Source: a virus. Taken from it: a stretch of 29,001 nt of DNA. The translations under genes and the position numbers were made by a program. Each line of letters opens with the position of its first letter. Position 1 is the stretch's first letter. The DNA is taken from IMG/VR virus record IMGVR_UViG_3300025438_000098, positions 1 through 29,001 of that record. One strand, written 5' to 3'. The notes beneath the pieces are model-generated. The model was not told the origin of the DNA. It ran no database searches and saw only the letters and a list, made by a program, of their open reading frames with translations. Positions 4,315 to 27,345 of this stretch are shown here, one piece after another.

Positions 4315-4357
4315 ACGAACCACCATATTGTTAATATATAACAATATGGTGGTTCGT
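4315..4357. repeat. Perfect 19-bp inverted repeat around a TATATA core and start codon
   Basis: The arms 4315-4333 and 4339-4357 are perfect reverse complements, with the 5-nt loop ATATA. The right arm holds the ATG (4346) of the homing endonuclease gene. The left arm holds its mirror-image ATG on the minus strand (4326), which reads only MVVRSNF before a stop. The centre TTAATATATAA matches the recurrent promoter-like box. The structure therefore duplicates promoter plus start codon in both directions. As RNA it would form a hairpin hiding the start; as DNA it could be a bidirectional promoter or an endonuclease/operator site. Confidence 0.9.
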
Positions 4358-6364
4358 AATATTATTAGTTTAGAAACAAAGGGTTGTCGTAAAAAGGCAT
4401 ATTATAAATCAATTGGATATGACATTTCAGGTGATTTCATTGATATAAAAATAGAACACATAACACCTGGGTCAAGACATCTAATAGATGTTCAGTGTGA
4501 TTATTGTGAGAGTGTATCCAATATAACCTGTAAAGAGTATTTCCGTAATATATCACTTGGTGGTAAATATTCATGTTCTAAGAAATGTGGATCAGAGAAG
4601 GCTAAGGAGAGTAATGTAGATAAATATGGTGTTGAGTATCCAATGATGTTGGATGAGGTACAAGGAAAGGCCAAGAAAACGAATTTGGAGAGATATGGTG
4701 TTGAGTTCTTACAACAATCTACTGAAATGAAGGAAAGGTCCAAGAAAACCCTTATGAGTAAATATGGTGTTGATCACATATCCAAATCAAAGATGTTTGG
4801 GGATAAATTCCGAAAAACTTGTATGGATAATCATGGTGTTGAATATCCAATGCAGTCAATTGATATACGTGAAAAGAGTAAGGTAACATTATTGAATAAT
4901 TATGGTGTTGATAACCCATCTAAATCGGATGTTATAAGGGATAGTGTTGTGAAAACTAATTTGGAGAGATATGGTGGTCATTATATGAAAACCGATGATG
5001 GGAAGGAACACCACATAAATTTGATGATGTCAAAGTATGGTGTTGATAATATATCCAAATTAGAAAACACAAAGGATAAAATTAAGAAAACGAATTTGGA
5101 GAGATATGGATATATCTACACTATGCAGAATAGTGATGTTAAAGAAAAGTCGAGAGAAACATGTATATTAAAGTATGGTGTTGATAACCCATCTAAATCA
5201 CCTGGTGTGAGAGATAAAGTTAAGAAAACAAATTTAAATAGATATGGTTCAGAACATTTTATGTCCTCAGATACCTTTCGTGATATTTCGAAGTCTACTA
5301 TGTTGGATAAATATGGAGATGTTAGTCCAACAATATCCGAATCACTTAGGATATCAAATTATAAAATGTGTAAAGATGTGGATTACCTATATTATGTTGG
5401 ATATTCTACATCAGTTTTTAAATGTGTTTCTGGTCACGATTTTGAAATAAAAACTGATAATTATCACACAAGAAATAAGGCGGGTGTACCATTATGTACC
5501 ATCTGTAACCCGATAGGTAATTCATCTTCAATAAAGGAGAAGGAGTTATGTGATTATGTGAGTTCAGTTTATTCCGGTGAAGTTATTCAATCATATCGTG
5601 ATGGTTTAGAAATAGATATTTACCTACCGGAACTTAAAATAGGTTTTGAGTTTAACGGATTATACTGGCATTCCGAGGAATATAAAAACAAGAATTATCA
5701 TTTAAATAAAACTAATCATTTTAAGGAAAGAGGAATTCGTATAATACATATATGGGAAGATGATTGGATACTGAAACGTGATATTATAGAGAGTCAGATA
5801 TCTAATTTGGTGGGACTAGTTAAAAACCGTGTATACGCTAGAAAATGTGAAGTTGTTATTCTAGACAATTGTTCTGATTTCTTAAATGTGAATCATGTAC
5901 AGGGTAAGGATAGAAGTGTTGTTAAGATGGGTTTGTTGTATAATTCAGAGTTGGTGTCAGTTATGACATTTAATAAATTAGAAGGTCGTAAGAAGTTACC
6001 TAATGGTGAGTGGAATTTGTCAAGGTTTTGTAATCTATTGAACCACTCAGTAGTTGGTGGATCATCTAAACTATTATCACATTTTATAAAGTATAATGAG
6101 GTATCTCGTGTTGTTAGTTACGCTGATGCTGATTGGTCTGTTGGGAATTTATATTTAATCTTGGGATTTTTGAATATTCTCGAATCTAAACCAGATTATA
6201 AATATGTTGTGTGTGGTGTTAGGAGACATAAACAGAATTATAAGAAGAAGAATCTTGGTATACAGGGTCAGTCAATAACTGAGAAACAACACATGGCATC
6301 TCTTGGATATTATCGGATATGGGATTGTGGTAAAATAAAATTTGAGAAAATAATAAACCTTTGA
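4346..6364 (+). CDS. Free-standing EDxHD (Vsr-fold) homing endonuclease with repeat array and C-terminal GNAT-like domain
   Basis: A 672-residue protein. The frame opens upstream with a TTG at 4328, but ATG 4346 lies at the usual distance from the TATATA core. Order of parts: a zinc-ribbon-like C51-x2-C54 with C77-x3-C81; eleven modules of about 24 residues centred on K/R-Y-G (residues about 93-325) that should contact DNA; a second CTIC pair; and the nuclease, with EIDIYLPELKIGFEFNGLYW, H442, a YHLNK stretch and EDDW (471-474). This is the signature of EDxHD homing endonucleases related to I-Bth0305I. The C-terminal 180 residues (ARKCEVV, NHVQGK, RFCN, VVGGSSKLL, SYADADWS) form a domain often attached to such enzymes, possibly GNAT-like. 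A paralogue lies at 22002-24041 and a truncated relative at 14954-15343. It is a selfish mobile gene next to gp55. Confidence 0.88.
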   Translation: MVVRNIISLETKGCRKKAYYKSIGYDISGDFIDIKIEHITPGSRHLIDVQCDYCESVSNITCKEYFRNISLGGKYSCSKKCGSEKAKESNVDKYGVEYPMMLDEVQGKAKKTNLERYGVEFLQQSTEMKERSKKTLMSKYGVDHISKSKMFGDKFRKTCMDNHGVEYPMQSIDIREKSKVTLLNNYGVDNPSKSDVIRDSVVKTNLERYGGHYMKTDDGKEHHINLMMSKYGVDNISKLENTKDKIKKTNLERYGYIYTMQNSDVKEKSRETCILKYGVDNPSKSPGVRDKVKKTNLNRYGSEHFMSSDTFRDISKSTMLDKYGDVSPTISESLRISNYKMCKDVDYLYYVGYSTSVFKCVSGHDFEIKTDNYHTRNKAGVPLCTICNPIGNSSSIKEKELCDYVSSVYSGEVIQSYRDGLEIDIYLPELKIGFEFNGLYWHSEEYKNKNYHLNKTNHFKERGIRIIHIWEDDWILKRDIIESQISNLVGLVKNRVYARKCEVVILDNCSDFLNVNHVQGKDRSVVKMGLLYNSELVSVMTFNKLEGRKKLPNGEWNLSRFCNLLNHSVVGGSSKLLSHFIKYNEVSRVVSYADADWSVGNLYLILGFLNILESKPDYKYVVCGVRRHKQNYKKKNLGIQGQSITEKQHMASLGYYRIWDCGKIKFEKIINL

Positions 6365-7682: not shown

Positions 7683-7736
7683 ACAACTTCTATAAACATT
7701 TGTATAATATGTTTATAGAAGGTGTATGAATAAAGT
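7672..7736. repeat. 28-bp-arm palindrome containing both divergent start codons
   Basis: Arms 7672-7699 and 7709-7736 are reverse complements with one mismatch (7686/7722), separated by 9 nt (TTGTATAAT). The gmd ATG (7726, +) and the small-ORF ATG (7682, -) are exact mirror positions. Each arm carries TATAAACAT and ends in the first codons, M-N-K. It is likely a bidirectional promoter formed by inverted duplication, or a regulatory hairpin covering the start codon. Confidence 0.9.
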
Positions 7737-8766
7737 CGCATTAATTACCGGTATTACCGGTCAGGACGGAAGTTACCTAAGTGAACTACTACTAGAGAAG
7801 GGATATGTTGTACATGGTATTAAAAGAAGAAGTTCTTCCTTCAATACTGAACGCATAGACCACATTTATGATGATGAGAAATATAAAGATAAATTCTTCT
7901 TACATTATGGTGATTTAACAGATTCAACCAACATAATAAGAATTGTACAAGAGGTTCAACCTGATGAGATATACAATTTGGGAGCTCAATCACATGTGAT
8001 GGTTTCTTTTGAAACACCAGAATATACGGCTAATTCGGATGCAATTGGTCCTTTGAGAATACTCGAAGCTATTAAAATTCTGAAATTAGAGGAAAAGACG
8101 AAATTTTACCAAGCATCTACCTCTGAGATGTTCGGATTAGTACAGGAAGTTCCACAAACAGAAACAACACCATTCTATCCAAGAAGTCCTTATGGATGTG
8201 CTAAGTTATACGCACATTGGATAACAGTAAATTATAGAGAGTCTTATGGTATGTTTGCTTGTTCTGGTATTCTATTCAATCACGAGAGTCCAGTTAGAGG
8301 AGAAACATTCGTAACTCGTAAAATAACTCAGGCAGTTGCTAAAATAAAGCTTGGTTTACAGGATAAGTTGTATATTGGTAATCTTGATGCTGAAAGGGAT
8401 TGGGGACATGCCAAGGATTATGTCCGTGGTATGTGGATGATGTTACAACAAGATAAACCTGGTGATTATGTTTTATCAACTGGTAAAAAGATTTCGGTTC
8501 GTACATTCTGTGAAATGTCATTTCGTGAAATTGGAGTTGAGATTAACTGGGTTGGTGAGGGTGTTCATGAGGTTGGTGTTGATTCAGAAACACAAATGGT
8601 CTTGGTTGAAATTAACTCTAAATATTTCAGACCAACTGAAGTATGTGAGTTATTAGGTGATTCTACAAAAGCTCGTGATGAACTTGGTTGGGAACCTGAG
8701 TGTAGTGTTGTGCAATTGTGTAGTGAGATGGTTAAATATGATATAAATAAATTATCTAGAGTATAA
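7726..8766 (+). CDS. gmd: GDP-mannose 4,6-dehydratase
   Basis: Converts GDP-D-mannose to GDP-4-keto-6-deoxymannose, the first step of GDP-L-fucose synthesis, using tightly bound NADP. It is a short-chain dehydrogenase of the extended type. The Rossmann motif is [11 protein letters not shown] (8-18). [15 protein letters not shown] near residue 35 is typical of Gmd. The catalytic set is STSEMFG (131-137) with Y156-x3-K160 in SPYGCAK, followed by [18 protein letters not shown]. At 346 aa it is full length. Its stop is directly followed by the fcl start, so the two are translated from one message. The start codon lies in a long palindrome. Phage copies may serve glycosylation of phage or host surface molecules; the acceptor is unknown. 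Confidence 0.96.
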
Positions 8767-9702
8767 ATGACAGTTATTAAACCTTATTCTAAAATCTTAG
8801 TATGTGGTGGTAATGGAATGGTTGGATTATCCATAATCAGAGAACTCAAATCAAGAGGATATAACAATATCATATCACCGACTAGTACAGAACTAGATAT
8901 GACAAGTCAATTTGGAGTAGATGGTTTCTTCAAGGAGCACAAACCAGTTTTCGTATTTATGGCAGCTGCAAAGGTTGGTGGTATACAGGCTAATAATACA
9001 CAGAAGGGTGAATTTATGTACAAAAATCTGATGATTCAGACTAACATAATACACTCATCTTATGTTTATGGTGTTGAGAAATTATTATTTCTGGGTTCAT
9101 CTTGTATTTATCCAAGAATGAGTCAACAACCAATCAAAGAAGAGTATTTAATGACCGGTGAATTAGAACCGACTAATGATTCTTACGCCTTATCAAAATT
9201 ATCGGGTATTAAGATGTGTCAGTCGTATAATGAACAGTATGGAACAAACTTCATATCTGTCATACCAACTAATTTATATGGTCCAAATGATAATTTCGAT
9301 TTGAATTCTTCACATGTATTACCAGCTTTGATACGTAAAGTACACGAGGCTAAAGAAAAAAATGATAACAATGTTGTTGTTTGGGGTTCGGGTAATCCAA
9401 AAAGAGAATTTCTGTATGTTGACGATTTGGCCGAGGCTTGTATAGACTTATTTGAGAATTATAGTGGTAATGACGTAATTAACATAGGTACCGGTGAAGA
9501 TATATCGATAAAAGATCTTGTATATCTTATACAGTATGTTGTTGGTTATACTTGTAACGTAGAATTCGATTCAAGTAAGCCAGATGGTACTCCGCGTAAA
9601 TTACTGGATGTATCAAGAGCTACCGAACTTGGTTGGACGTATAAGACTTCACTAAGAGATGGTATAGATAAAGCGTATAAACATTTTTTAGAGAATGAAT
9701 AA
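8767..9702 (+). CDS. fcl: GDP-L-fucose synthase
   Basis: An epimerase/reductase that turns the Gmd product into GDP-L-fucose with NADPH. The N-terminal nucleotide-binding motif is GGNGMVG (14-20). AAAKVGGIQANNTQ, LGSSCIYP (serine and cysteine of the active site) and Y140-x3-K144 (SYALSKLSG) are diagnostic, as is PTNLYGPNDNFD. At 311 aa it is full length. The ATG follows the gmd stop without a gap, and the last bases overlap the next ORF. With gmd it forms a complete two-step pathway from GDP-mannose. No fucosyltransferase is visible in the window. Confidence 0.95.
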   Translation: MTVIKPYSKILVCGGNGMVGLSIIRELKSRGYNNIISPTSTELDMTSQFGVDGFFKEHKPVFVFMAAAKVGGIQANNTQKGEFMYKNLMIQTNIIHSSYVYGVEKLLFLGSSCIYPRMSQQPIKEEYLMTGELEPTNDSYALSKLSGIKMCQSYNEQYGTNFISVIPTNLYGPNDNFDLNSSHVLPALIRKVHEAKEKNDNNVVVWGSGNPKREFLYVDDLAEACIDLFENYSGNDVINIGTGEDISIKDLVYLIQYVVGYTCNVEFDSSKPDGTPRKLLDVSRATELGWTYKTSLRDGIDKAYKHFLENE

Positions 9703-12135: not shown

Positions 12136-13851
12136 ATGTCAAGTTACAATCCAAATAATAATCAACAAGAATTTTCATATGTCAATTCGGCAGTAGAAAA
12201 TAGAGGACTCTTTTCGAGAATTCTTAGAAACCTTTCTAGTTGGGGTATGAACTACGATGATATGATCATGCGTAACCAGGTAGGTGTCGGTATTAATGAA
12301 GATCCGTACTCAACTGAGGGAAATTCGATGTATGATTTCTTTAGTCGTAAAGCGGTTGCATCTGTATTGGCTCGTAAATCTATTCCTTATTTGGATAGAT
12401 CATACTCGGACAAAAGAAGAATACTGAGAGAATATTCTATAAAGGATGAAATTAGAGATTTTATCTCGTCTATTGCTGATGAGGCAATTGTTTATTCCGA
12501 ACAAGATTTCTGTAAAGCTTCTTTGATATCAAATGATTATCCACAAGAAGTTAGAGATAAGTATTTGGAATATTTTCAAAAGATTTATTCTCGTTATGGT
12601 TTTGCCGATTCTATATCAGCATGGAACTTAATGAAAGATTTCTTGATTGATGGATATATAGCTATGGAGATTGTTTGGGATGATAAAAAGAAGAACATTG
12701 TTCACTTTAATCGTATGTCACCAGAAACATTAGTACCGGCATATGAGCCTAATATTGGTCACCTTTGGATTCAGTTCCCGGAAGACCCACAATTGAGAAG
12801 AATTTTACTTGATTCACAGATTATATTTATATCATATTCAACACAAAATGATTATTCTGAGACATCTTATGTTGAGGGGTTGATAAAACCATATAACCAA
12901 TTGAAGATTATAGAACAGACAAAAATAATGTTCAACATGATAAACTCTACACTTTATCAGAAATTTATCATACCAACAAAAGGACTTGGCCGACAAAGAG
13001 CCGAGGAACAAATTGGTCAATTGATACAAGATTATTCAGAGGAAGTTGAATGGGATGATACTATGGGTACATTACAAATAAATGGTCATAAACACTTACC
13101 ATATAATAAACAGTTCTGGTTCCCTGAGGGTGATGCTGGGATGCCTAGTATGGAAATTGTTTCGCCAGAAGGACATAACTTGAATGAGGATGATATTCTG
13201 AAATGGTTCTTCAATATATTGAAAAGAGCTTCTAAGATTCCATTGTTGCGATTTCAAGATGATAATGGTGGTGGTAATGTATTTACGGATGCTGCTGAGA
13301 TAACAAGAGATGAGGCTAAATTCAGTAGCTTCATACAGAGATTGAGAGCCATATTCAAAGAATTGATAGTTAAGCCTTTGAAGTTACAGATGTTAGTTGA
13401 GTTTCCGGAATTAAAAGAAGATGAGAAATTACTTAATCAAATTGATATTGACTTTATTTCTAATCAACTATTCGAAGAGTGGAAGAAATTAGGTAATCTT
13501 GCTAAGAAAGCTGAGATTTTACAAACAATGGCTGGCGTAGTTAAATCGGATGGTAATCCTTATTTCCACATCGAGTACCTTGTTGATCATATTCTTAAAT
13601 TATCACCCGAAGACAAGCAAGAAAACCAAAGATATTGGTTACGTGATCCGGATGGTGCTGGTAGTGCTGAGGGTATGGAAGGAGAAGGTGGTGCTGGTGG
13701 CGGAGACGGAGGTGATTTCGGTGGAGATGCTGGTGGCGGAGACGGAGGTGATTTCGGTGGAGATGCTGGTGGTGGAGATGCTGGTGGTGGAGATGCTGGT
13801 GGTGAAGATGCTGGTGGTGGAGATGCTGGTGGGGATGAATTTGAATTCTAA
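12136..13851 (+). CDS. 20: Portal vertex protein (T4 gp20-like)
   Basis: Forms the dodecameric ring through which DNA enters the prohead and to which the neck binds. The gp20 family shows in FFSRKAVASVLARKSIPYLDRSYSDKRRILREYS, IRDFISSIADEAIVY, LMKDFLIDGYIAMEIVWDDKKKNIVHFNRMSPETLVP, IEQTKIMFNMINSTLYQKFIIPTKGLG, WFPEGDAGMPSMEIVSPEG and LRFQDDNGGGNVFTDAAEITRDEAKFSSFIQRLR. At 571 aa it is longer than T4 gp20 (524), mainly because of a C-terminal tail of about 55 residues made of Gly, Asp and Ala repeats ending DEFEF. The start follows the HNH stop by 1 nt; TTTAATATACTA lies just upstream. Confidence 0.95.
   Translation: MSSYNPNNNQQEFSYVNSAVENRGLFSRILRNLSSWGMNYDDMIMRNQVGVGINEDPYSTEGNSMYDFFSRKAVASVLARKSIPYLDRSYSDKRRILREYSIKDEIRDFISSIADEAIVYSEQDFCKASLISNDYPQEVRDKYLEYFQKIYSRYGFADSISAWNLMKDFLIDGYIAMEIVWDDKKKNIVHFNRMSPETLVPAYEPNIGHLWIQFPEDPQLRRILLDSQIIFISYSTQNDYSETSYVEGLIKPYNQLKIIEQTKIMFNMINSTLYQKFIIPTKGLGRQRAEEQIGQLIQDYSEEVEWDDTMGTLQINGHKHLPYNKQFWFPEGDAGMPSMEIVSPEGHNLNEDDILKWFFNILKRASKIPLLRFQDDNGGGNVFTDAAEITRDEAKFSSFIQRLRAIFKELIVKPLKLQMLVEFPELKEDEKLLNQIDIDFISNQLFEEWKKLGNLAKKAEILQTMAGVVKSDGNPYFHIEYLVDHILKLSPEDKQENQRYWLRDPDGAGSAEGMEGEGGAGGGDGGDFGGDAGGGDGGDFGGDAGGGDAGGGDAGGEDAGGGDAGGDEFEF
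13693..13836 (+). repeat. Tandem repeats encoding the Gly/Asp-rich portal tail
   Basis: Two identical 36-bp units (13693-13728 and 13729-13764) are followed by 15-bp units at 13765, 13780, 13795, 13810 and a partial one at 13825. The 15-bp unit reads GCTGGTGGTGGAGAT (Ala-Gly-Gly-Gly-Asp). The repeats stay in frame, so length changes would alter only the tail of the portal protein. Confidence 0.9.
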
Positions 13852-15483: not shown

Positions 15484-16926
15484 TTAATATCCCGAAAATA
15501 TATCCATGATAACCGTCAATCTCTTGGTTATTTCTGGAAGTCCAAGTGGTTGAATAATACTATTTATGGGTCTAAGAATACATTTGTAAAATTGTGTATC
15601 ATAATCAATCTCAGGAGCAAGTTCCATAGGAAACGAACCTCTCTGAAAGGCAAAGACTGGTGATATCCTAGTATCTTTACAGTAGAAGTATTTTATCTTA
15701 ACACCAGACTTCAAGAATTCATACTTAGATTGTAAATCTTTACGATTATGAAGAAGATGATTGTGATAGGCAGCAGCCTTGACGGCAAAGTGAGCTCCAC
15801 TAACAAATACTAACCTATCTTTCTCCTCTAAGACTTTCTCTTCATATTTATTAACTGATGTCTGCATAGAAATTGAATCCATATCAGAAAGCTCAAACTC
15901 TCTTCTCAAATCCTTAACTTGTTTCAATAGGTTTTTGATATTGAAATCATCAGGGTGAGCAAATATGTACTTGATAATATCTACAATTTTCTCACGAGCA
16001 AACAATGGTGTTGATGATCTTACGAGTTCAACACCTTTTGGGAATATATAATCGAGTCTTTCATAATCAATCCCATCTTCATGTAATATATGTTGGATAT
16101 ATTTCTTCTTAGCTATATTAACAATCGATTCGGATATTCTCTCTAACTCGAAATCTTCTTTATTAGTAACCCCATATTCACCAGCGTATGTATCAAGACA
16201 ATCTTTGAAATATTTAGCATATCTAAAATGGTCAAATCCTTGTATAAAGTCTAACTCACATGACCAGTTCCAGTATATTTTATTTGATATTTCTGGTAGT
16301 ATCTTACTATTAAAGGTTCTATCTTTTACAAAAGCTCCATCAACAACAATTCTATCGTAACCATTTCCAATCTCTTCTAATATTGGTAATATATCAAATT
16401 TACCAAAATTTTCTAAATCTTCGATGTATATCGACTTAACATTAGGGTTATTTAATTTTGTTTCTTGTCTATGTTCTAATATAAGAACTTTGCTAGTCAT
16501 TCCTTCCAATCGTTCTTTATCTAGGAAGTTATTTTTCCACTGACATTTATTCATAACTGGTTCGAATGAAACGAATAGTGAATCTGTATCAGCATATATA
16601 GATACGTTCTCATCTTTTGATATTGTTTTGATTTCTTTCAAACCCATTATTTTATGTAGTTCGAAGTCTAGATGCCATAAATTGCTCCAGTATTCGACAT
16701 TATCTGTATCCATCCTCTTAGTTAATTCTCGACCCTGTGCTGTTATACTACCTGCTACGTGCTCATTGAACAGTATAAAGTAGGGAGTCGCGAGCGCTCC
16801 GTAGCTGCCGTTCAGTACTAACTTTAGTGCGAGTTGTAAACTATTATAATAGTCAACTTCGGCTTTGAGTTTGGATGCTTTTTCTTTTAGTATTTGTAAT
16901 TTATTTATTTTCTCCGCTTTTGTCAT
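15484..16926 (-). CDS. 43: DNA polymerase, family B, C-terminal half only (T4 gp43-like)
   Basis: 480 residues covering fingers end, palm and thumb of a T4-type replicative polymerase. Motif B is K35-L-V-L-N-G-S-Y-G43. Motif C is YADTDSLFVSF, with catalytic aspartates at 113 and 115. A KxY-like KKKY lies at 273-276. The C-terminus, LTVIMDIFSGY, resembles the clamp-binding end of gp43 (T4-type L-F-D-M-F-D-F). The exonuclease domain and motif A, roughly 520 residues in T4, are absent: upstream DNA holds an 80-bp gap and then a plus-strand GIY-YIG gene. A natural start (MTKAEKINKLQILKE) precedes motif B by 34 residues. The break lies in the fingers domain, as in the two-piece gp43 of some Aeromonas T4-like phages. 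The other piece must lie elsewhere. Confidence 0.92.
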   Translation of the reverse strand: MTKAEKINKLQILKEKASKLKAEVDYYNSLQLALKLVLNGSYGALATPYFILFNEHVAGSITAQGRELTKRMDTDNVEYWSNLWHLDFELHKIMGLKEIKTISKDENVSIYADTDSLFVSFEPVMNKCQWKNNFLDKERLEGMTSKVLILEHRQETKLNNPNVKSIYIEDLENFGKFDILPILEEIGNGYDRIVVDGAFVKDRTFNSKILPEISNKIYWNWSCELDFIQGFDHFRYAKYFKDCLDTYAGEYGVTNKEDFELERISESIVNIAKKKYIQHILHEDGIDYERLDYIFPKGVELVRSSTPLFAREKIVDIIKYIFAHPDDFNIKNLLKQVKDLRREFELSDMDSISMQTSVNKYEEKVLEEKDRLVFVSGAHFAVKAAAYHNHLLHNRKDLQSKYEFLKSGVKIKYFYCKDTRISPVFAFQRGSFPMELAPEIDYDTQFYKCILRPINSIIQPLGLPEITKRLTVIMDIFSGY

Positions 16927-17888: not shown

Positions 17889-20015
17889 ATGAAACCAGTA
17901 TTAATTGTAGAAAACTCGACTAACTCTCTAAAGAGGTTAAATGAATCAGTTGCACAGATGAAGGATCAGTACCTATTGAGTGGTATTTTTACGGAGTTTG
18001 GTGTTAAGAACAGAAATGACCGTGTTTACACGGCTGAGAAGTTCCTTCCAGCATTGAAAGAATTAACTGAAAGAATTGAGACACTTGGTGTTGTTTATGG
18101 TGAGTTTGATCATCCAGATGTTTTTGATACATCTTTATCGAGATCATCACACACTATACAATCTACTAAGTATTTATCAGAGCAAAATCGAGTAGAGGGT
18201 GAGATTAGATTACTTTCTACTTATTGGGGTAAAGAAGCAAAAGCACTTGTCAATGATGGGTGTCCTATTTTCGTTTCATCTCGTGCTGCTGGTGTAACAG
18301 AGTCTGATGGCTCAGTAGCTTTGAAAAAATTATTCACATATGATATCGTTGCCGATCCTGGATTTGGATCAGCTAAAATGCACGTTAAGCCTCTCAATGA
18401 GAGTCTTGGGTATGCCGCTGATACTAACTTTAGAATCTATGAGATGTCGGATGAATCAAAAATAAATGACCTATTTAACATGAATCAAAATGATCTCGTA
18501 ACAAAAACACAATTATCGGAATACTCTAAGTATCTTATTACTGAGTTAGCTTCTACTAAAAAAGAAGTTAAGACGGCACTTACTAAGGGTAACTTAACAC
18601 CGAAAAAACTAGAACAACTTCTAGAATACTATGACGAACTTAATGTTACGAATGGTAAAATGACTAAATATCTTGATTACTTGGCTGAAAAGATTCAATT
18701 AGTTGTGTCAGAAAACAAAACACTTATCGAAAGAACAGATAAAATAATTGAACACAATGATTACTTAGCTGAAAATCTAGAAAAGTCTATTAACTACTCT
18801 GAGTATATCGCTGAGAAGTTAGACAAGAATATCGATTACTCTGAGTATATCGCTGAGAACTTAGATAAGTCAATCTCTTACGGAGAATATATCGCTGAGA
18901 ACTTGGACAAGTCAATCTCTTACGGAGAATATCTTGCTGAGAACTTAGATAAGAACATCGCATACTCTGAGTACATCGCTGAGAACTTAGATAAGAACAT
19001 CGCATACTCTGAGTACATCGCTGAGAACTTAGATAAGAACATCTCTTACGGAGAATATCTTGCTGAGAACTTGGACGATTCAATTGCATACTCTGAATAT
19101 TTATCAGAGCATGTTGAGGGTAACATTGCATACTCTGAGTACATCGCTGAAAACCTTGATGATAACATTGCATACTCTGAGTATGTTGCTGAGTCTGTTG
19201 ATAAGTCAATTGACTATCAAAAGACTATCGTTAATAAGTTGAATGAAGGACTAGTAACTGAAAATGTTGATGGATCAACAAGAAGTATGTTCCCATCACC
19301 GGAACAAGCTGGGTTCGTATCGGTTGAGGAAGAAGAAGAAGAAGAAGTTGGTGGTGACGGATCAGATGAAAATATTCCATCTGCTGATGAAACACCTAAA
19401 GTTGAAGAAGAAGAAGAAAAAACTTGCGACACTGATAAAAAAGACGAAAAAGACGACGAAGAAGAAGAAGAATCATCTGAGATTTCAGGAGATTCTGACA
19501 CTGAACTTTCGAAAAGTATAGATAAATTGATTGGAGAAGCTAAGAAACGAAAAGTTTCTGAAACATCCGATTTACATTTCTTAAAATTCTTGAACAAATC
19601 ACAGGTAGATAGTTTCTACGACCTTGTAAATGAGGAACAAGAAACTGTTAAACTTTATATAAACGAAAAAAGTTTCTTCACATCATATGATGTATTGAAG
19701 TTAATCTCTGAAGCGTTAAGTACTAAAAACGAGACTCTTGAAACGAGAGTTATCCGATTGATGCCCGAAAACATTAAGCCAATCTGGAACCAATTGAACG
19801 AGAGTTCTAGAAAGTCTGTTCTTTCACAAGCCAGACTTTACCCTGACGAAGTATTGAAAACTGAATCTCAGTTAGAACACTTCTGGAGAACTAGAAATCT
19901 CAAAACAAATGAATCTGTAACTAAAAAACTAGTTTCACACGAAGCACTTATCCAAGAGGATAGACTGAGTGAGAATGAAATGGGTTCTATTATGGAACGA
20001 TTCAAAAACCTTTAA
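17889..20015 (+). CDS. 21: Prohead protease-scaffold fusion (T4 gp21-gp22-like)
   Basis: 708 residues. Residues 1-175 form the prohead protease: YLLSGIFTEFGVKNRNDRVYT, catalytic histidine in YGEFDHPD (H75), FVSSRAAG (nucleophile S130 or S131) and YDIVADPGF. T4 gp21 cleaves after (I/L)xE during head maturation. Residues 200-436 are a predicted coiled-coil scaffold. From residue 264 to 432 a 14-residue unit recurs in exact register, each with Y-I/L-A-E or an equivalent (L-I-E at 279-281; Y-V-A-E in the last). Nearly every unit thus carries a potential cleavage site. Residues 479-535 are strongly acidic (E/D runs), like T4 internal peptides. A C-terminal domain of about 165 residues follows. In T4, protease and scaffold are separate genes. 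The capsid gene follows by 41 nt. Confidence 0.92.
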   Translation: MKPVLIVENSTNSLKRLNESVAQMKDQYLLSGIFTEFGVKNRNDRVYTAEKFLPALKELTERIETLGVVYGEFDHPDVFDTSLSRSSHTIQSTKYLSEQNRVEGEIRLLSTYWGKEAKALVNDGCPIFVSSRAAGVTESDGSVALKKLFTYDIVADPGFGSAKMHVKPLNESLGYAADTNFRIYEMSDESKINDLFNMNQNDLVTKTQLSEYSKYLITELASTKKEVKTALTKGNLTPKKLEQLLEYYDELNVTNGKMTKYLDYLAEKIQLVVSENKTLIERTDKIIEHNDYLAENLEKSINYSEYIAEKLDKNIDYSEYIAENLDKSISYGEYIAENLDKSISYGEYLAENLDKNIAYSEYIAENLDKNIAYSEYIAENLDKNISYGEYLAENLDDSIAYSEYLSEHVEGNIAYSEYIAENLDDNIAYSEYVAESVDKSIDYQKTIVNKLNEGLVTENVDGSTRSMFPSPEQAGFVSVEEEEEEEVGGDGSDENIPSADETPKVEEEEEKTCDTDKKDEKDDEEEEESSEISGDSDTELSKSIDKLIGEAKKRKVSETSDLHFLKFLNKSQVDSFYDLVNEEQETVKLYINEKSFFTSYDVLKLISEALSTKNETLETRVIRLMPENIKPIWNQLNESSRKSVLSQARLYPDEVLKTESQLEHFWRTRNLKTNESVTKKLVSHEALIQEDRLSENEMGSIMERFKNL
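18678..19196 (+). repeat. 42-bp tandem repeats encoding 14-residue scaffold units
   Basis: The 42-bp unit encodes Y-S/G-E-Y-I-A-E-N-L-D-K-N/S-I-A/S/D. Units from about residue 303 to 436 are near identical at DNA level. Those from 264 to 302 are degenerate in sequence but in the same 14-residue register. Two heptads per unit fit a coiled coil. The repeats create long spurious ORFs on the other strand. Confidence 0.92.
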
Positions 20016-20056: not shown

Positions 20057-21796
20057 ATGTCACACATTAGAATAGACAAAAATAAAGCTGTCAAGAAATG
20101 GGGTCCAGTATTGGAAAACATGGGAGTTACTAATGAGGAAAGAGTTGATTGGTTATCAGAATATGCTGAATTTCACTCAATTAATGAGAACGCATACGTA
20201 AATGCTACAACAGCAGGTATGGGTCCCATCAATTCTCCTCAACCAGGTACACTTCCAGGACTTCTTGGTGGTGGAGCCGGATTTGGTGGTCAATCACAAC
20301 CAGGCGAATTGCGTATAGGATCAGGTGATCTTGGTCAAAACTTGCTACCAGTAGCAATGAAAATCGCAGCACAAACAATAGGTTTAGACCTAGTAGCTGT
20401 AAAACCTACTCCGGGTCCAAAAATCGACCTTCTTTATATTGATTTTCAATATGATGATTTGAGAGATGTTGGTGAAGACTCACGACCACAAGTATTTAAG
20501 TTCAATTCAACTGATACTGCTGCTTATACAGCAAACATCGCTGGACTTACTGCAGCTATCGCTGCAGGAACGGGAATAGTTGAAACATCAGGTGGTTTAT
20601 CTGGCGGACAAGTGTTCGTTAATATCACAACAGGTCTTACAACTTATGCTGAACCAGTAGGTGATAAAGAAAATATGTTAGAATTCTTAGGATTCTCTCG
20701 TGTAGATGGTCTTCCAATGTACAAAGCATGGAGACAAGCTAATTCAACTACTGCCCCAGGTGGTGGTGGTGCTGGTGGTAATGGTTACCCTTATGTATAT
20801 AACCAATTACAGAATACGTTCGGACCAACTCCGTCAATGAATGCTCAGTTGAGCGCTGGTGTATTTAGTGGAGGTGTAACTTATTCGCGTGATTCTGTTG
20901 GTATCGAATTGGTATCAGCTCTTGAAGATCACCTACCAGGGTTTTCTGCAAACTGGAACTCATCAAATTCGTCAGGTGATTACCCAATGGATAGAGATAT
21001 GGATGATAAAAGATACTCAGGTGTTATTGGTCCAAAAATTTCGTCAAAATCTGTAAAAGTAGGTACTATTGAAGTATCAACTGCTCTTAGAAGAACAGAG
21101 ATTGAAGATATTAAGGCTAACACAGGAATGGATATCGTTCAAAAAATGGAATCAATCTTGGTTAATGAATTATCTCAGGTAATTTCTAAACAAATTGTTT
21201 CAAGAATCTTTGAGTTAGGAGATGCTAACAGAGCTTCTGCACCACTTGGTGGAGTTGGTACTATTGTTGGACAAACTATTTTCGACCTTGACACTGCATA
21301 TGCAGCAGCAGGTATCGTTGGTGGTGAAACAACTCACGCAGTTCAAAGAAAACTGATCACTAAAATGCTTCACGCATCAAATTACCTTGCTACCGAAGGT
21401 CGTGTTGGTCCTGCACAGTTTGCAGTAACTAATGGAGGTTTGGCCGCATCACTTATGGATGTAGTTGGTTATACTGTTAATCCAGTAAAATCTAAGTTGA
21501 ATGGTCAGGGTCAATTGTACCCAGTAGGTCAAATTGGAGAAATTCAAATTTATGTTGACCCGTACATGAAGTACAATGATAACAGAATCGTTATTGGAAG
21601 AAAGAATAACCCAGATCAACCAGGTTTGATTTTTGTACCATATCTTATGGCACAGTCAATCTCTGTAATCTCTGAGGCAACCTTTGCTCCAAGAATGTTA
21701 CTTAGATCTCGTTACGCAATCGCAGACGTTGGGTTCTTCCCAGAGAAGCAGTATATGACTATCCGAGTTAAAGATACAGCAGTTCTTTTGAACTAA
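20057..21796 (+). CDS. 23: Major capsid protein (T4 gp23-like)
   Basis: 579 residues; builds the hexamers of the head. Family features: the N-terminal KAVKKWGPVLENMGVTNEERVDWLSEYAEFHS (compare T4 LLNKWKPLLEGEG), GDLGQNLLPVAMKIAAQTIGLDLVAVKPTPGPKIDLLYIDFQYDD, the mid-region ALRRTEIEDIKANTGMDIVQKMESILVNELSQVISKQIV, and the C-terminal IYVDPYMKYNDNRIVIGRK, FVPYLMAQSISVISEATFAPRMLLRSRYAIAD. T4 gp23 loses 65 N-terminal residues to gp21 at an (I/L)xE site. Here I42-N-E44 before N45 (and L-S-E at 33-35) fits, giving a shorter propeptide. Gly-rich stretches near residues 72-85 and 234-245 are probably surface loops. It is followed by a strong terminator. Confidence 0.96.
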   Translation: MSHIRIDKNKAVKKWGPVLENMGVTNEERVDWLSEYAEFHSINENAYVNATTAGMGPINSPQPGTLPGLLGGGAGFGGQSQPGELRIGSGDLGQNLLPVAMKIAAQTIGLDLVAVKPTPGPKIDLLYIDFQYDDLRDVGEDSRPQVFKFNSTDTAAYTANIAGLTAAIAAGTGIVETSGGLSGGQVFVNITTGLTTYAEPVGDKENMLEFLGFSRVDGLPMYKAWRQANSTTAPGGGGAGGNGYPYVYNQLQNTFGPTPSMNAQLSAGVFSGGVTYSRDSVGIELVSALEDHLPGFSANWNSSNSSGDYPMDRDMDDKRYSGVIGPKISSKSVKVGTIEVSTALRRTEIEDIKANTGMDIVQKMESILVNELSQVISKQIVSRIFELGDANRASAPLGGVGTIVGQTIFDLDTAYAAAGIVGGETTHAVQRKLITKMLHASNYLATEGRVGPAQFAVTNGGLAASLMDVVGYTVNPVKSKLNGQGQLYPVGQIGEIQIYVDPYMKYNDNRIVIGRKNNPDQPGLIFVPYLMAQSISVISEATFAPRMLLRSRYAIADVGFFPEKQYMTIRVKDTAVLLN

Positions 21797-22001: not shown

Positions 22002-24041
22002 ATGTTTGTTAAGAAAAGATTAGATATCATTACTGAAATATTGGATGGTAGTCCATCGAGAATGAGGGTGTGTTATTTTAAAAAGAACCATTTAAATATA
22101 TTGGAACAAATAGAATCTTTTTGTTCCAATATAGATGTATCTTTTAAGCAAATGATATGGCATTGGGTTAATGATTCATCATCATATTATAAGTGTGTGT
22201 GTGGTGGGTTTACAACTTTCAACAGGAACTGGTTGGATGGATATAGGGAAAATTGTTCACCTAAATGTGCCCAGGGAAAAAAGACCACGAAGGAGAAGAG
22301 GAAAAAGACCACAATTGAAAAATATGGTGTTGATAATATTGCTAAATTGTATAAAACTAAGAAAAAGCAAGCTATTACAAACCTCGAAAGATATGGATCA
22401 ACTTCCTCTTTTCAGAACGAGGCTGTTCGTTTAAAATATAGAAAAACTTGTTTGTATAGGTATGGTGTTGATCACTATTTCAAAACTGACGAATTTAAGG
22501 AAATCTCTAAGATTAGTAATTATGAGAAATATGGTGTATCACACTTTGTACAGAGTGATGAATATATAAAAAGGTCAGTTTATAGTAATAATGAGAAGTA
22601 TGGTCGGGATTGGTTTACACAAACGGAGGAGTATCTTATAAAAACCAGAAATACTAATAATGAAAAGTATGGATTTGATTCCTATGTTAATACGTCCGAA
22701 TATAAGTCCTTGTTGAAAAAGACTAATTTAGAGAAATATGGATCGGAATGGTATTTCCAATCCGATGAGTTTCGTAAATCCATTGAGGGTATAATGGTAG
22801 AAAAATATGGTGATGGGCATTATTCAAAGACACAAGAATATAAAGACCGTGTTAAGAAGACCAATGTAGAGAGGTATGGGTCCGAGTGGTATTTTCAATC
22901 TGATGGGTTTCGTGATTCGATTGAGGATATAATGGTTGAGAAGTATGGATCATCTCATTATTCAAAAACAAAGGAGTATAAGAATTTGTTAAATAGTGAT
23001 GTGTATGTTGAGAGGCGTTTATCACAGAGGGTTGGTCATTATAAAGAAATGGGATTTTCATTTATATCATCATCAGAAACACCAGGATTTGTTGATTTAT
23101 ATAGTGATGTTTGTGGTCATACTTTCTCCATACACCCAACAACACTAAAGCGTAGAATCGATGTTGGTTTGTGTGGGTGTGTTGTGTGTAACCCTTTGAA
23201 TAATGGTTCGGGTCAAGAAAAACGAATCGGTGAGTGGTTAGATACATTGGATATTGTTTATATTTCGAACGATAAGTCTATTATTCAGAATATGGAATTG
23301 GATATTTATATACCAAGTTTGAATTTAGCTATTGAATATAATGGACTTTATTGGCATTCTGATATTTATAAACATGTGAATTATCATCTAGAGAAAACTC
23401 AGAAATGTAATGATGTTGGGATTCATTTATTACATATTTGGGAGGATGATTGGTTATATAAGGAGAATATAGTTAAATCTATATTAATGAATTTTATGGG
23501 TTTGTCTAGTAATGTATTATATGCTAGAAAATGTACCATTTCGGAAGTGGTTGATAAGAAAATGGTTAATTTATTTTTCAATGAAAATCATATACAGGGT
23601 AAAACGAATTATAAAACCTCTATTGGATTATTTTATGGTGATGAGATGGTTTCCTGTATGTTGTTTCATAGTCCGAGGGGTGAACATGAACTCGTTAGGT
23701 TTTGTAATAAGAAATTTACATCTGTTGTTGGTGGAGCATCTCGACTATTTAAATATTATATAAATAATTTTGATATCAATCATATATCATCATTTGCGGA
23801 TATATCCATATTTAGTGGTGATTTGTATACCAAATTAAATTTTGAACTATCACATAGAACTAAACCAAATTATTGGTGGGTGGTTGATGGTATACGTAAA
23901 CATAGGTTTACTTATAATAAGAAGAAGTTGATTAAAGAGGGATTTGATCCATTGAAAACCGAGGTTGGAATTATGCACGGTCGTGGATATTATCGAGTAT
24001 ATGGGTGTGGTTTGGATAAATATATATGGAATCATAAATGA
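22002..24041 (+). CDS. Second large EDxHD (Vsr-fold) homing endonuclease with repeat array
   Basis: 679 residues, a diverged paralogue of the 4346-6364 gene with the same architecture. The N-terminal part has CVCGG and NCSPKCA as a zinc ribbon. Ten modules centred on E/Y-K/R-Y-G follow (residues about 106-330: EKYGVDNIA, ERYGSTSSF, YRYGVDHYF and so on). Then come a CGCVVCNP pair, the nuclease MELDIYIPSLNLAIEYNGLYWHSD with YHLEKT and LLHIWEDDW, and the C-terminal GNAT-like domain (YARKCTI, NHIQGKTN, RFCNKKF, VVGGASRLF, YYRVYGCG). It lies downstream of the capsid gene terminator with its own TATATA box. The recognition modules differ in the variable positions from the first copy, so a different target is expected. 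Confidence 0.88.
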   Translation: MFVKKRLDIITEILDGSPSRMRVCYFKKNHLNILEQIESFCSNIDVSFKQMIWHWVNDSSSYYKCVCGGFTTFNRNWLDGYRENCSPKCAQGKKTTKEKRKKTTIEKYGVDNIAKLYKTKKKQAITNLERYGSTSSFQNEAVRLKYRKTCLYRYGVDHYFKTDEFKEISKISNYEKYGVSHFVQSDEYIKRSVYSNNEKYGRDWFTQTEEYLIKTRNTNNEKYGFDSYVNTSEYKSLLKKTNLEKYGSEWYFQSDEFRKSIEGIMVEKYGDGHYSKTQEYKDRVKKTNVERYGSEWYFQSDGFRDSIEDIMVEKYGSSHYSKTKEYKNLLNSDVYVERRLSQRVGHYKEMGFSFISSSETPGFVDLYSDVCGHTFSIHPTTLKRRIDVGLCGCVVCNPLNNGSGQEKRIGEWLDTLDIVYISNDKSIIQNMELDIYIPSLNLAIEYNGLYWHSDIYKHVNYHLEKTQKCNDVGIHLLHIWEDDWLYKENIVKSILMNFMGLSSNVLYARKCTISEVVDKKMVNLFFNENHIQGKTNYKTSIGLFYGDEMVSCMLFHSPRGEHELVRFCNKKFTSVVGGASRLFKYYINNFDINHISSFADISIFSGDLYTKLNFELSHRTKPNYWWVVDGIRKHRFTYNKKKLIKEGFDPLKTEVGIMHGRGYYRVYGCGLDKYIWNHK

Positions 24042-26973: not shown

Positions 26974-27341
26974 GGGTCCGTATGGCATTTGACTTATAAG
27001 GAGATTCGTTAACACGCAAGTATCGGTTTGATTAATACCGATTTATCAAAAATCTATCAAAACTGTAAACGGAAACGTTACAAACGAAGTAGGTACTAGT
27101 GAAGATTTAGTAGCTGTCCTACAAAACAATATGCTCACGGTAAGAGAGCTGGAAGTAGCGTAAGTTAATTCTGAATTCGACCACTGAAATACAACAGTTA
27201 AAAATAGTGTTAGTTTTTGTTGGAGTTCTTTAAACACAAAGAAACCTACTATTTTGTTGAGTCAAGAAAAATTCAACTAAACTTGTGAATGAGTGATATC
27301 GTTCAATTATGAAGACGAGGGTTCGAGTCCCTCCGGATCCA
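26974..27341 (+). ncRNA. ssrA: Transfer-messenger RNA (tmRNA)
   Basis: A 368-nt RNA that rescues stalled ribosomes. The 5' GGGTCCG (26974-26980) pairs with 3' CGGATCC (27334-27340), with a G3-U70 wobble and A73, the alanine identity elements that all tmRNAs share. UGGCAUUUGAC follows as the reduced D-arm. The T-arm is GAGGG-TTCGAGT-CCCTC. CCA is not encoded. ATCGGT/ACCGAT (27022-27042) forms a PK1-type stem. The tag frame starts about GTA 27065, begins V-N-G-N-V-T-N-E, includes E-D-L-V-A, and stays open for 32 codons to TAA 27161; GTAGG/CCTAC (27089-27122) forms P5 around the middle. A TATATA box lies upstream and a terminator downstream. The unusually long tag frame is discussed under findings. 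Confidence 0.9.
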
Positions 27342-27345
27342 CATC

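Follow-up and report, generated by a model that had tools for sequence, protein, structure and literature searches.

A gp21-type protease fused to a scaffold with a 14-residue array of putative cleavage sites and a candidate nested start in huge T4-like phages

Among the known systems nearest to the locus analyzed here are the head maturation systems of phage T4 and of herpesviruses. The T4 protease gp21 has the specificity L/I-x-E and cuts the scaffold gp22 into several fragments (PMC9026906), and gp22 and gp21 stand at about 576 to 100 (PMC5694885). Herpesvirus UL26 is a protease-scaffold fusion with UL26.5 nested in frame within it; in pseudorabies virus, UL26.5 starts 21 residues past the release site (PMC4498786). 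The phage P2 protein gpO likewise carries an N-terminal protease and a C-terminal scaffold, a likeness considered at the level of architecture, and the available part of that source describes no periodic site array (PMC7552001). Our literature search, limited to an open-access set, returned nothing on fused or nested protease-scaffold genes, and in that set we found no gp21-type fusion that combines a nested start with a periodic site array.

We analyzed a 29,001-nucleotide stretch of the virus record IMGVR_UViG_3300025438_000098 (hereafter the window). The initial annotation had placed a scaffold fused to its own protease at positions 17889-20015, and an open reading frame (ORF) encoding 708 residues does occupy exactly these coordinates; the next gene downstream is that of a gp23-type major capsid protein. 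The relevant features are:

17889..20015, + strand: fused head maturation protease-scaffold ORF (708 aa)
17970..18386, + strand: protease domain (residues 28-166; triad H75/S130/D152)
18393..18401, + strand: putative release site L169-N170-E171/S172 at the protease/scaffold junction
18458..18467, + strand: A-rich element AAAAATAAAT upstream of the internal ATG
18480..18482, + strand: candidate internal start codon ATG (M198), predicting a 511-aa scaffold-only product
18678..19193, + strand: 14-residue repeat array (residues 264-435; 13 sites, 12 (I/L)xE plus VAE)
19245..19496, + strand: acidic segment, predicted disordered in the AlphaFold2 (AF2) model (residues 453-536)
19500..20012, + strand: C-terminal helical domain in the AF2 model (residues 538-708)
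20057..21796, + strand: gp23-type major capsid protein, the probable main substrate (Pfam Gp23, E=3.7e-26)
20180..20188, + strand: putative cleavage site INE44/N45 of the capsid protein propeptide
12136..13851, + strand: gp20-type portal protein of the same head module (Pfam Portal_T4, E=9.6e-58)

Profile, fold and active-site comparisons agree that the N-terminal domain is a gp21-type protease, as first proposed. The domain matches the PHROG 207 head maturation protease family (E=2.8e-28) and, by profile, the gp21 fold (E=1.1e-4). Its AF2 model, with pLDDT mostly 80-90, has T4 gp21 (5jbl) as its best Foldseek match (E=2.8e-6), with the herpesvirus assemblins next. The triad H75/S130/D152 aligns with H85/S140/D168 of T4 and is invariant in 43 relatives. 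Pfam S77 is found in 42 of the 43 at E<=0.01, with the window protein scoring under the curated cut-off, and a phmmer search of the PDB with the protease domain alone gave nothing useful. Indirectly, the capsid protein site described below suggests that the window protease may cut after L/I-x-E.

Close homologues of the fused protein are encoded in the uncultured phage records LR756501-LR756504 and LR745206 (636-735 kb), and a more distant one in LR756500 (462 kb). Scans of viral contigs recovered 198 family ORFs, 177 of them complete; 170 complete ORFs carry at least eight repeat units at exact spacing, and in all 170 the protease and scaffold form one intact ORF. The fusion in ORF 17889-20015 is thus real at the level of sequence, and the arrangement is conserved and functional-looking. 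In a tree of protease domains, the 50 fused sequences form a single clade (support 0.84), within which the Lak phage and one further fused sequence (L110), both lacking the array, branch first; the array-bearing forms group in a clade (support 0.90) that also takes in a few divergent members. Protease and scaffold are separate genes in enterobacterial and Pseudomonas jumbo phages, a cyanophage and T4. The Lak fused protease (L035:5932-7689, with TAG read as Gln) has an acidic linker and a C-terminal domain but no 14-residue array, and it too has a Met ahead of a VT motif.

The AF2 model orders the region after the protease as a linker, a long helix (238-452), the acidic segment and the helical C-terminal domain, in which W633, F665, W666 and R669 are invariant in the family alignment. 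The libraries searched, PHROG and Pfam among them, named no family for the scaffold part, C-terminal domain included. Pfam matches to LTI65_PGEED and PSCyt2 both fall on the repeats and were rejected as spurious. Identity to jumbo-phage scaffolds is 21-22%, a figure obtained on low-complexity helix with composition correction off. The scaffold part lies, like T4 gp22, between portal/protease and gp23.

The array geometry reported in the initial annotation is accurate. Thirteen sites, at residues 264, 278 and onward to 432, recur exactly every 14 residues; the first 12 match (I/L)xE, and the last reads YVAE. The longest 14-spaced (I/L)xE run is 12, compared with at most 3 when residues 198-708 were shuffled 5000 times. 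Units one and two (YLAE264 and TLIE278) have diverged more than the others, and an additional IIE at 286 does not keep the register. Exact spacing recurs in the 170 complete relatives, with unit number stable within clades. Consistent with the proposal of a helical rod, the array falls within the 238-452 helix, which AF2 predicts with low to moderate confidence. One relative (L104:4001-5635) has a different 14-residue repeat, NWSEHVTETVSGIE, at the same place.

To describe the units, we collapsed the 170 array-bearing ORFs to 42 representatives at 70% identity and located repeats by a score that omits the I/L, A and E columns, which yielded 502 units. The initial annotation had named the loss of I/L-x-E with retention of heptad positions as evidence against its reading. 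The opposite was found in the 42 relatives: the P1 Glu (column 14) is the most conserved of the 14 columns, present in 0.92 of the units and in 0.96 of those in the window's clade. In degenerate arrays it stands at 0.84, and Y8 alone carries more information. Recent duplication was rejected as the source of this conservation, as in proteins whose units are <30% identical to one another Glu is still at 0.75, with Y8 at 0.73 and every other column at or below 0.54. Column 7, which shares a heptad position with the P1 Glu because the two are seven residues apart, is the least conserved column of the repeat. This pattern supports, at the sequence level, the proposed chain of protease sites.

The P3 position is more permissive in the array than in the capsid protein. 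The capsid site has Glu at P1 in 129 of 129 sequences and L (84), I (38), M (6) or V (1) at P3. Val occupies P3 in 16% of array units (31% in degenerate arrays), compared with L/I/M in 128/129 capsid sites, so not every array site need be cut, and Val may weaken some of them. An apparent co-variation between Val at the junction and Val at array P3 (p=0.0016) was discarded, as a control column gave p=0.006.

Site enrichment extends past the array. Outside it, (I/L)xE occurs at ~1.8-2.1 times expectation: 2.1 times after the array, where the control motifs (I/L)xxE, (I/L)xD and (I/L)xK stand at 0.83-0.96, and about 1.9 times in the preceding linker, where the controls (I/L)xD (1.65 times) and (I/L)xK (1.36 times) are likewise raised. 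The remaining genes of the window have 119 such motifs vs 98.6 expected (1.2 times). In T4 gp22, which gp21 is proven to cut, there are 16 vs 5.6 expected, and in the unfused scaffolds of jumbo phages and cyanophage 16-24 vs 6-9 (~2-3.5 times in jumbo phages); a wealth of sites is thus general among such scaffolds. The unfused jumbo-phage scaffolds (121Q gp602, BF, GAP32, PA5oct) also share several 14-15 spacings with the window protein, but they are separate ORFs with irregular spacing. Saturation with (I/L)xE is therefore not particular to the window protein; the exact period is.

At the junction of protease and scaffold, N170 and E171 are invariant in 43 relatives and align with ITE-187 of T4 gp21, which makes self-release of the protease there likely. 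Beyond this site, a Met equivalent to M198 is retained in 41 of 42 representatives, while the adjacent residues and the preceding linker vary. It lies 9-14 residues ahead of a conserved LxxYS-type anchor, with two exceptions at 20 and 26. The initial annotation had suggested an internal start near residue 186. The idea of a conserved start context stands, but at M198: residue 186 is I, L or V in relatives and its context is poor, and we rejected it.

These phages show no Shine-Dalgarno sequence, and the region from -18 to -13 of their capsid gene starts holds A-rich tracts. This agrees with Bacteroidetes, in which Shine-Dalgarno sequences are lacking and A is favoured at -3 (PMC6847099). Across the family, the conserved internal ATG has A at -15 in 41/41 cases and at -14 in 95%; the linker ahead of M198 is Lys/Asn-rich, a composition that alone makes DNA A-rich. 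With a weight matrix built from 118 capsid starts, conserved internal ATGs score 0.17 on average, while annotated starts average 2.6 and the remaining internal ATGs -14.8 (p=2e-20, though the representatives are related and p-values thus overstate their independence). The conserved ATG ranks top in 27 of 41 sequences, where 5.3 were expected, and the score has its maximum exactly at the conserved Met codon.

The earlier default of 1:1 protease:scaffold stoichiometry is therefore probably wrong. A scaffold-only product would be needed to reach a ratio like the 576:100 of T4, and through the conserved second start signal the virus can probably also make core protein free of the enzyme, in the manner of herpesviruses. 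The predicted start lies 26 residues after the release site, vs 21 in pseudorabies virus.

We propose that, in a clade of huge T4-like phages, the gp21 protease and gp22-type core scaffold genes became one, most likely with two nested products. The 708-aa protease-scaffold would bring the protease into the prohead, and the 511-aa scaffold from M198 would supply most of the core. The array would form a helical rod with one protease site per 14 residues. Once activated, the protease would free itself at LNE171, trim the capsid protein at INE44 and dice the rod, at its (I/L)xE sites, into peptides of 14 residues, NLDKNIAYSEYIAE among them; the peptides would presumably exit, making room for DNA in the head. 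We consider this two-product, pre-scored model probable as a whole, with cleavage, the sizes of the products, initiation at the internal start and peptide exit all standing as predictions. For the more specific picture, a UL26/UL26.5-like nested gene in huge T4-like phages together with a periodic rod diced by its own protease into 14-mers, the balance is about even.

Alternatively, rod packing or salt bridges might be what maintains the P1 Glu and its preceding hydrophobic residue, in a structural coiled coil that is not cut at each repeat. Conservation of Y8, Y11, I6 and A13, acceptance of Val at array P3 unlike at the capsid sites, and the continuous AF2 helix fit such a rod. Against it, Glu is better conserved than nearly all core columns, the most diverged arrays included, no column varies more than the one at the same heptad position as Glu, and the excess of (I/L)xE reaches past the array; we regard a purely structural role as unlikely. 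We think it very improbable that the array serves mainly as a length ruler or spacer setting head size, with incidental cleavage sites. Exact register and the clade-wise stability of unit number would suit a ruler, but larger contigs or genomes do not carry more units (rho -0.63 in 14 large contigs and genomes), and we rejected array length as a genome-size ruler.

Somewhat less likely than a structural coiled coil is that only the full-length product is made, fixing protease and scaffold at 1:1, with the conserved Met a relic of a once-separate scaffold start. One relative (L101) has no start codon at the M198 position, and in a synonymous-codon conservation test around M198 the windows at 186-191 rank 65-142 of 684. 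Against this, the Met is kept across the family's divergence amid varying neighbours and linker, which argues against a relic, since relics should decay, and the A-rich start context peaks at that Met.

The proposed two-product gene resembles T4 gp21/gp22 in protease fold and triad, in gene order before gp23, in L/I-x-E at the capsid protein and in a scaffold saturated with L/I-x-E. It differs in being one gene with an exact 14-residue period, whereas T4 has separate adjacent genes and irregular gp22 sites. With herpesvirus UL26/UL26.5 it shares a protease upstream of the scaffold in one ORF, a release site between them, putative in the phage, and a protease fold for which the assemblins are the matches next after gp21. 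However, UL26.5 is documented and the phage 511-aa product is predicted, and the herpesvirus scaffold has few cut sites where the phage scaffold has many putative ones. A gp21-type protease is thus found in the gene layout of its herpesvirus relatives, which bears on the origin of that layout. The locus also offers a candidate core scaffold for some of the largest known phages, in which annotation ends at "prohead protease" or "prohead core scaffolding and protease".

The exact register leads to a sharp mass-spectrometry prediction: a full digest of the window protein with VAE433 uncut would release an uninterrupted row of nine 14-mers (296-421) plus a further one at 268-281. Expected peptides include NLDKNIAYSEYIAE (monoisotopic mass 1641.79 Da), NLDKSISYGEYIAE (1600.76) and NLDKNISYGEYLAE (1627.77). 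The predicted internal start is testable in expression hosts that use leadered starts without Shine-Dalgarno sequences.

Elsewhere in the window, Gly/Asp-rich tandem repeats lie near the end of the portal gene (13681-13832). Two large related homing endonuclease genes (4328-6364 and 22002-24041) encode 678 and 679 aa, the latter with an internal 138-base repeat. A 480-aa piece of a family B DNA polymerase (15484-16926) matches only the C-terminal part of its profile and adjoins a GIY-YIG endonuclease gene, possibly reflecting a split polymerase. Two adjacent nucleotide-sugar epimerase-like genes occupy 7726-9702, and ARAGORN and Rfam identify a tmRNA gene at 26974-27344 with the tag VLQNNMLTVRELEVA.
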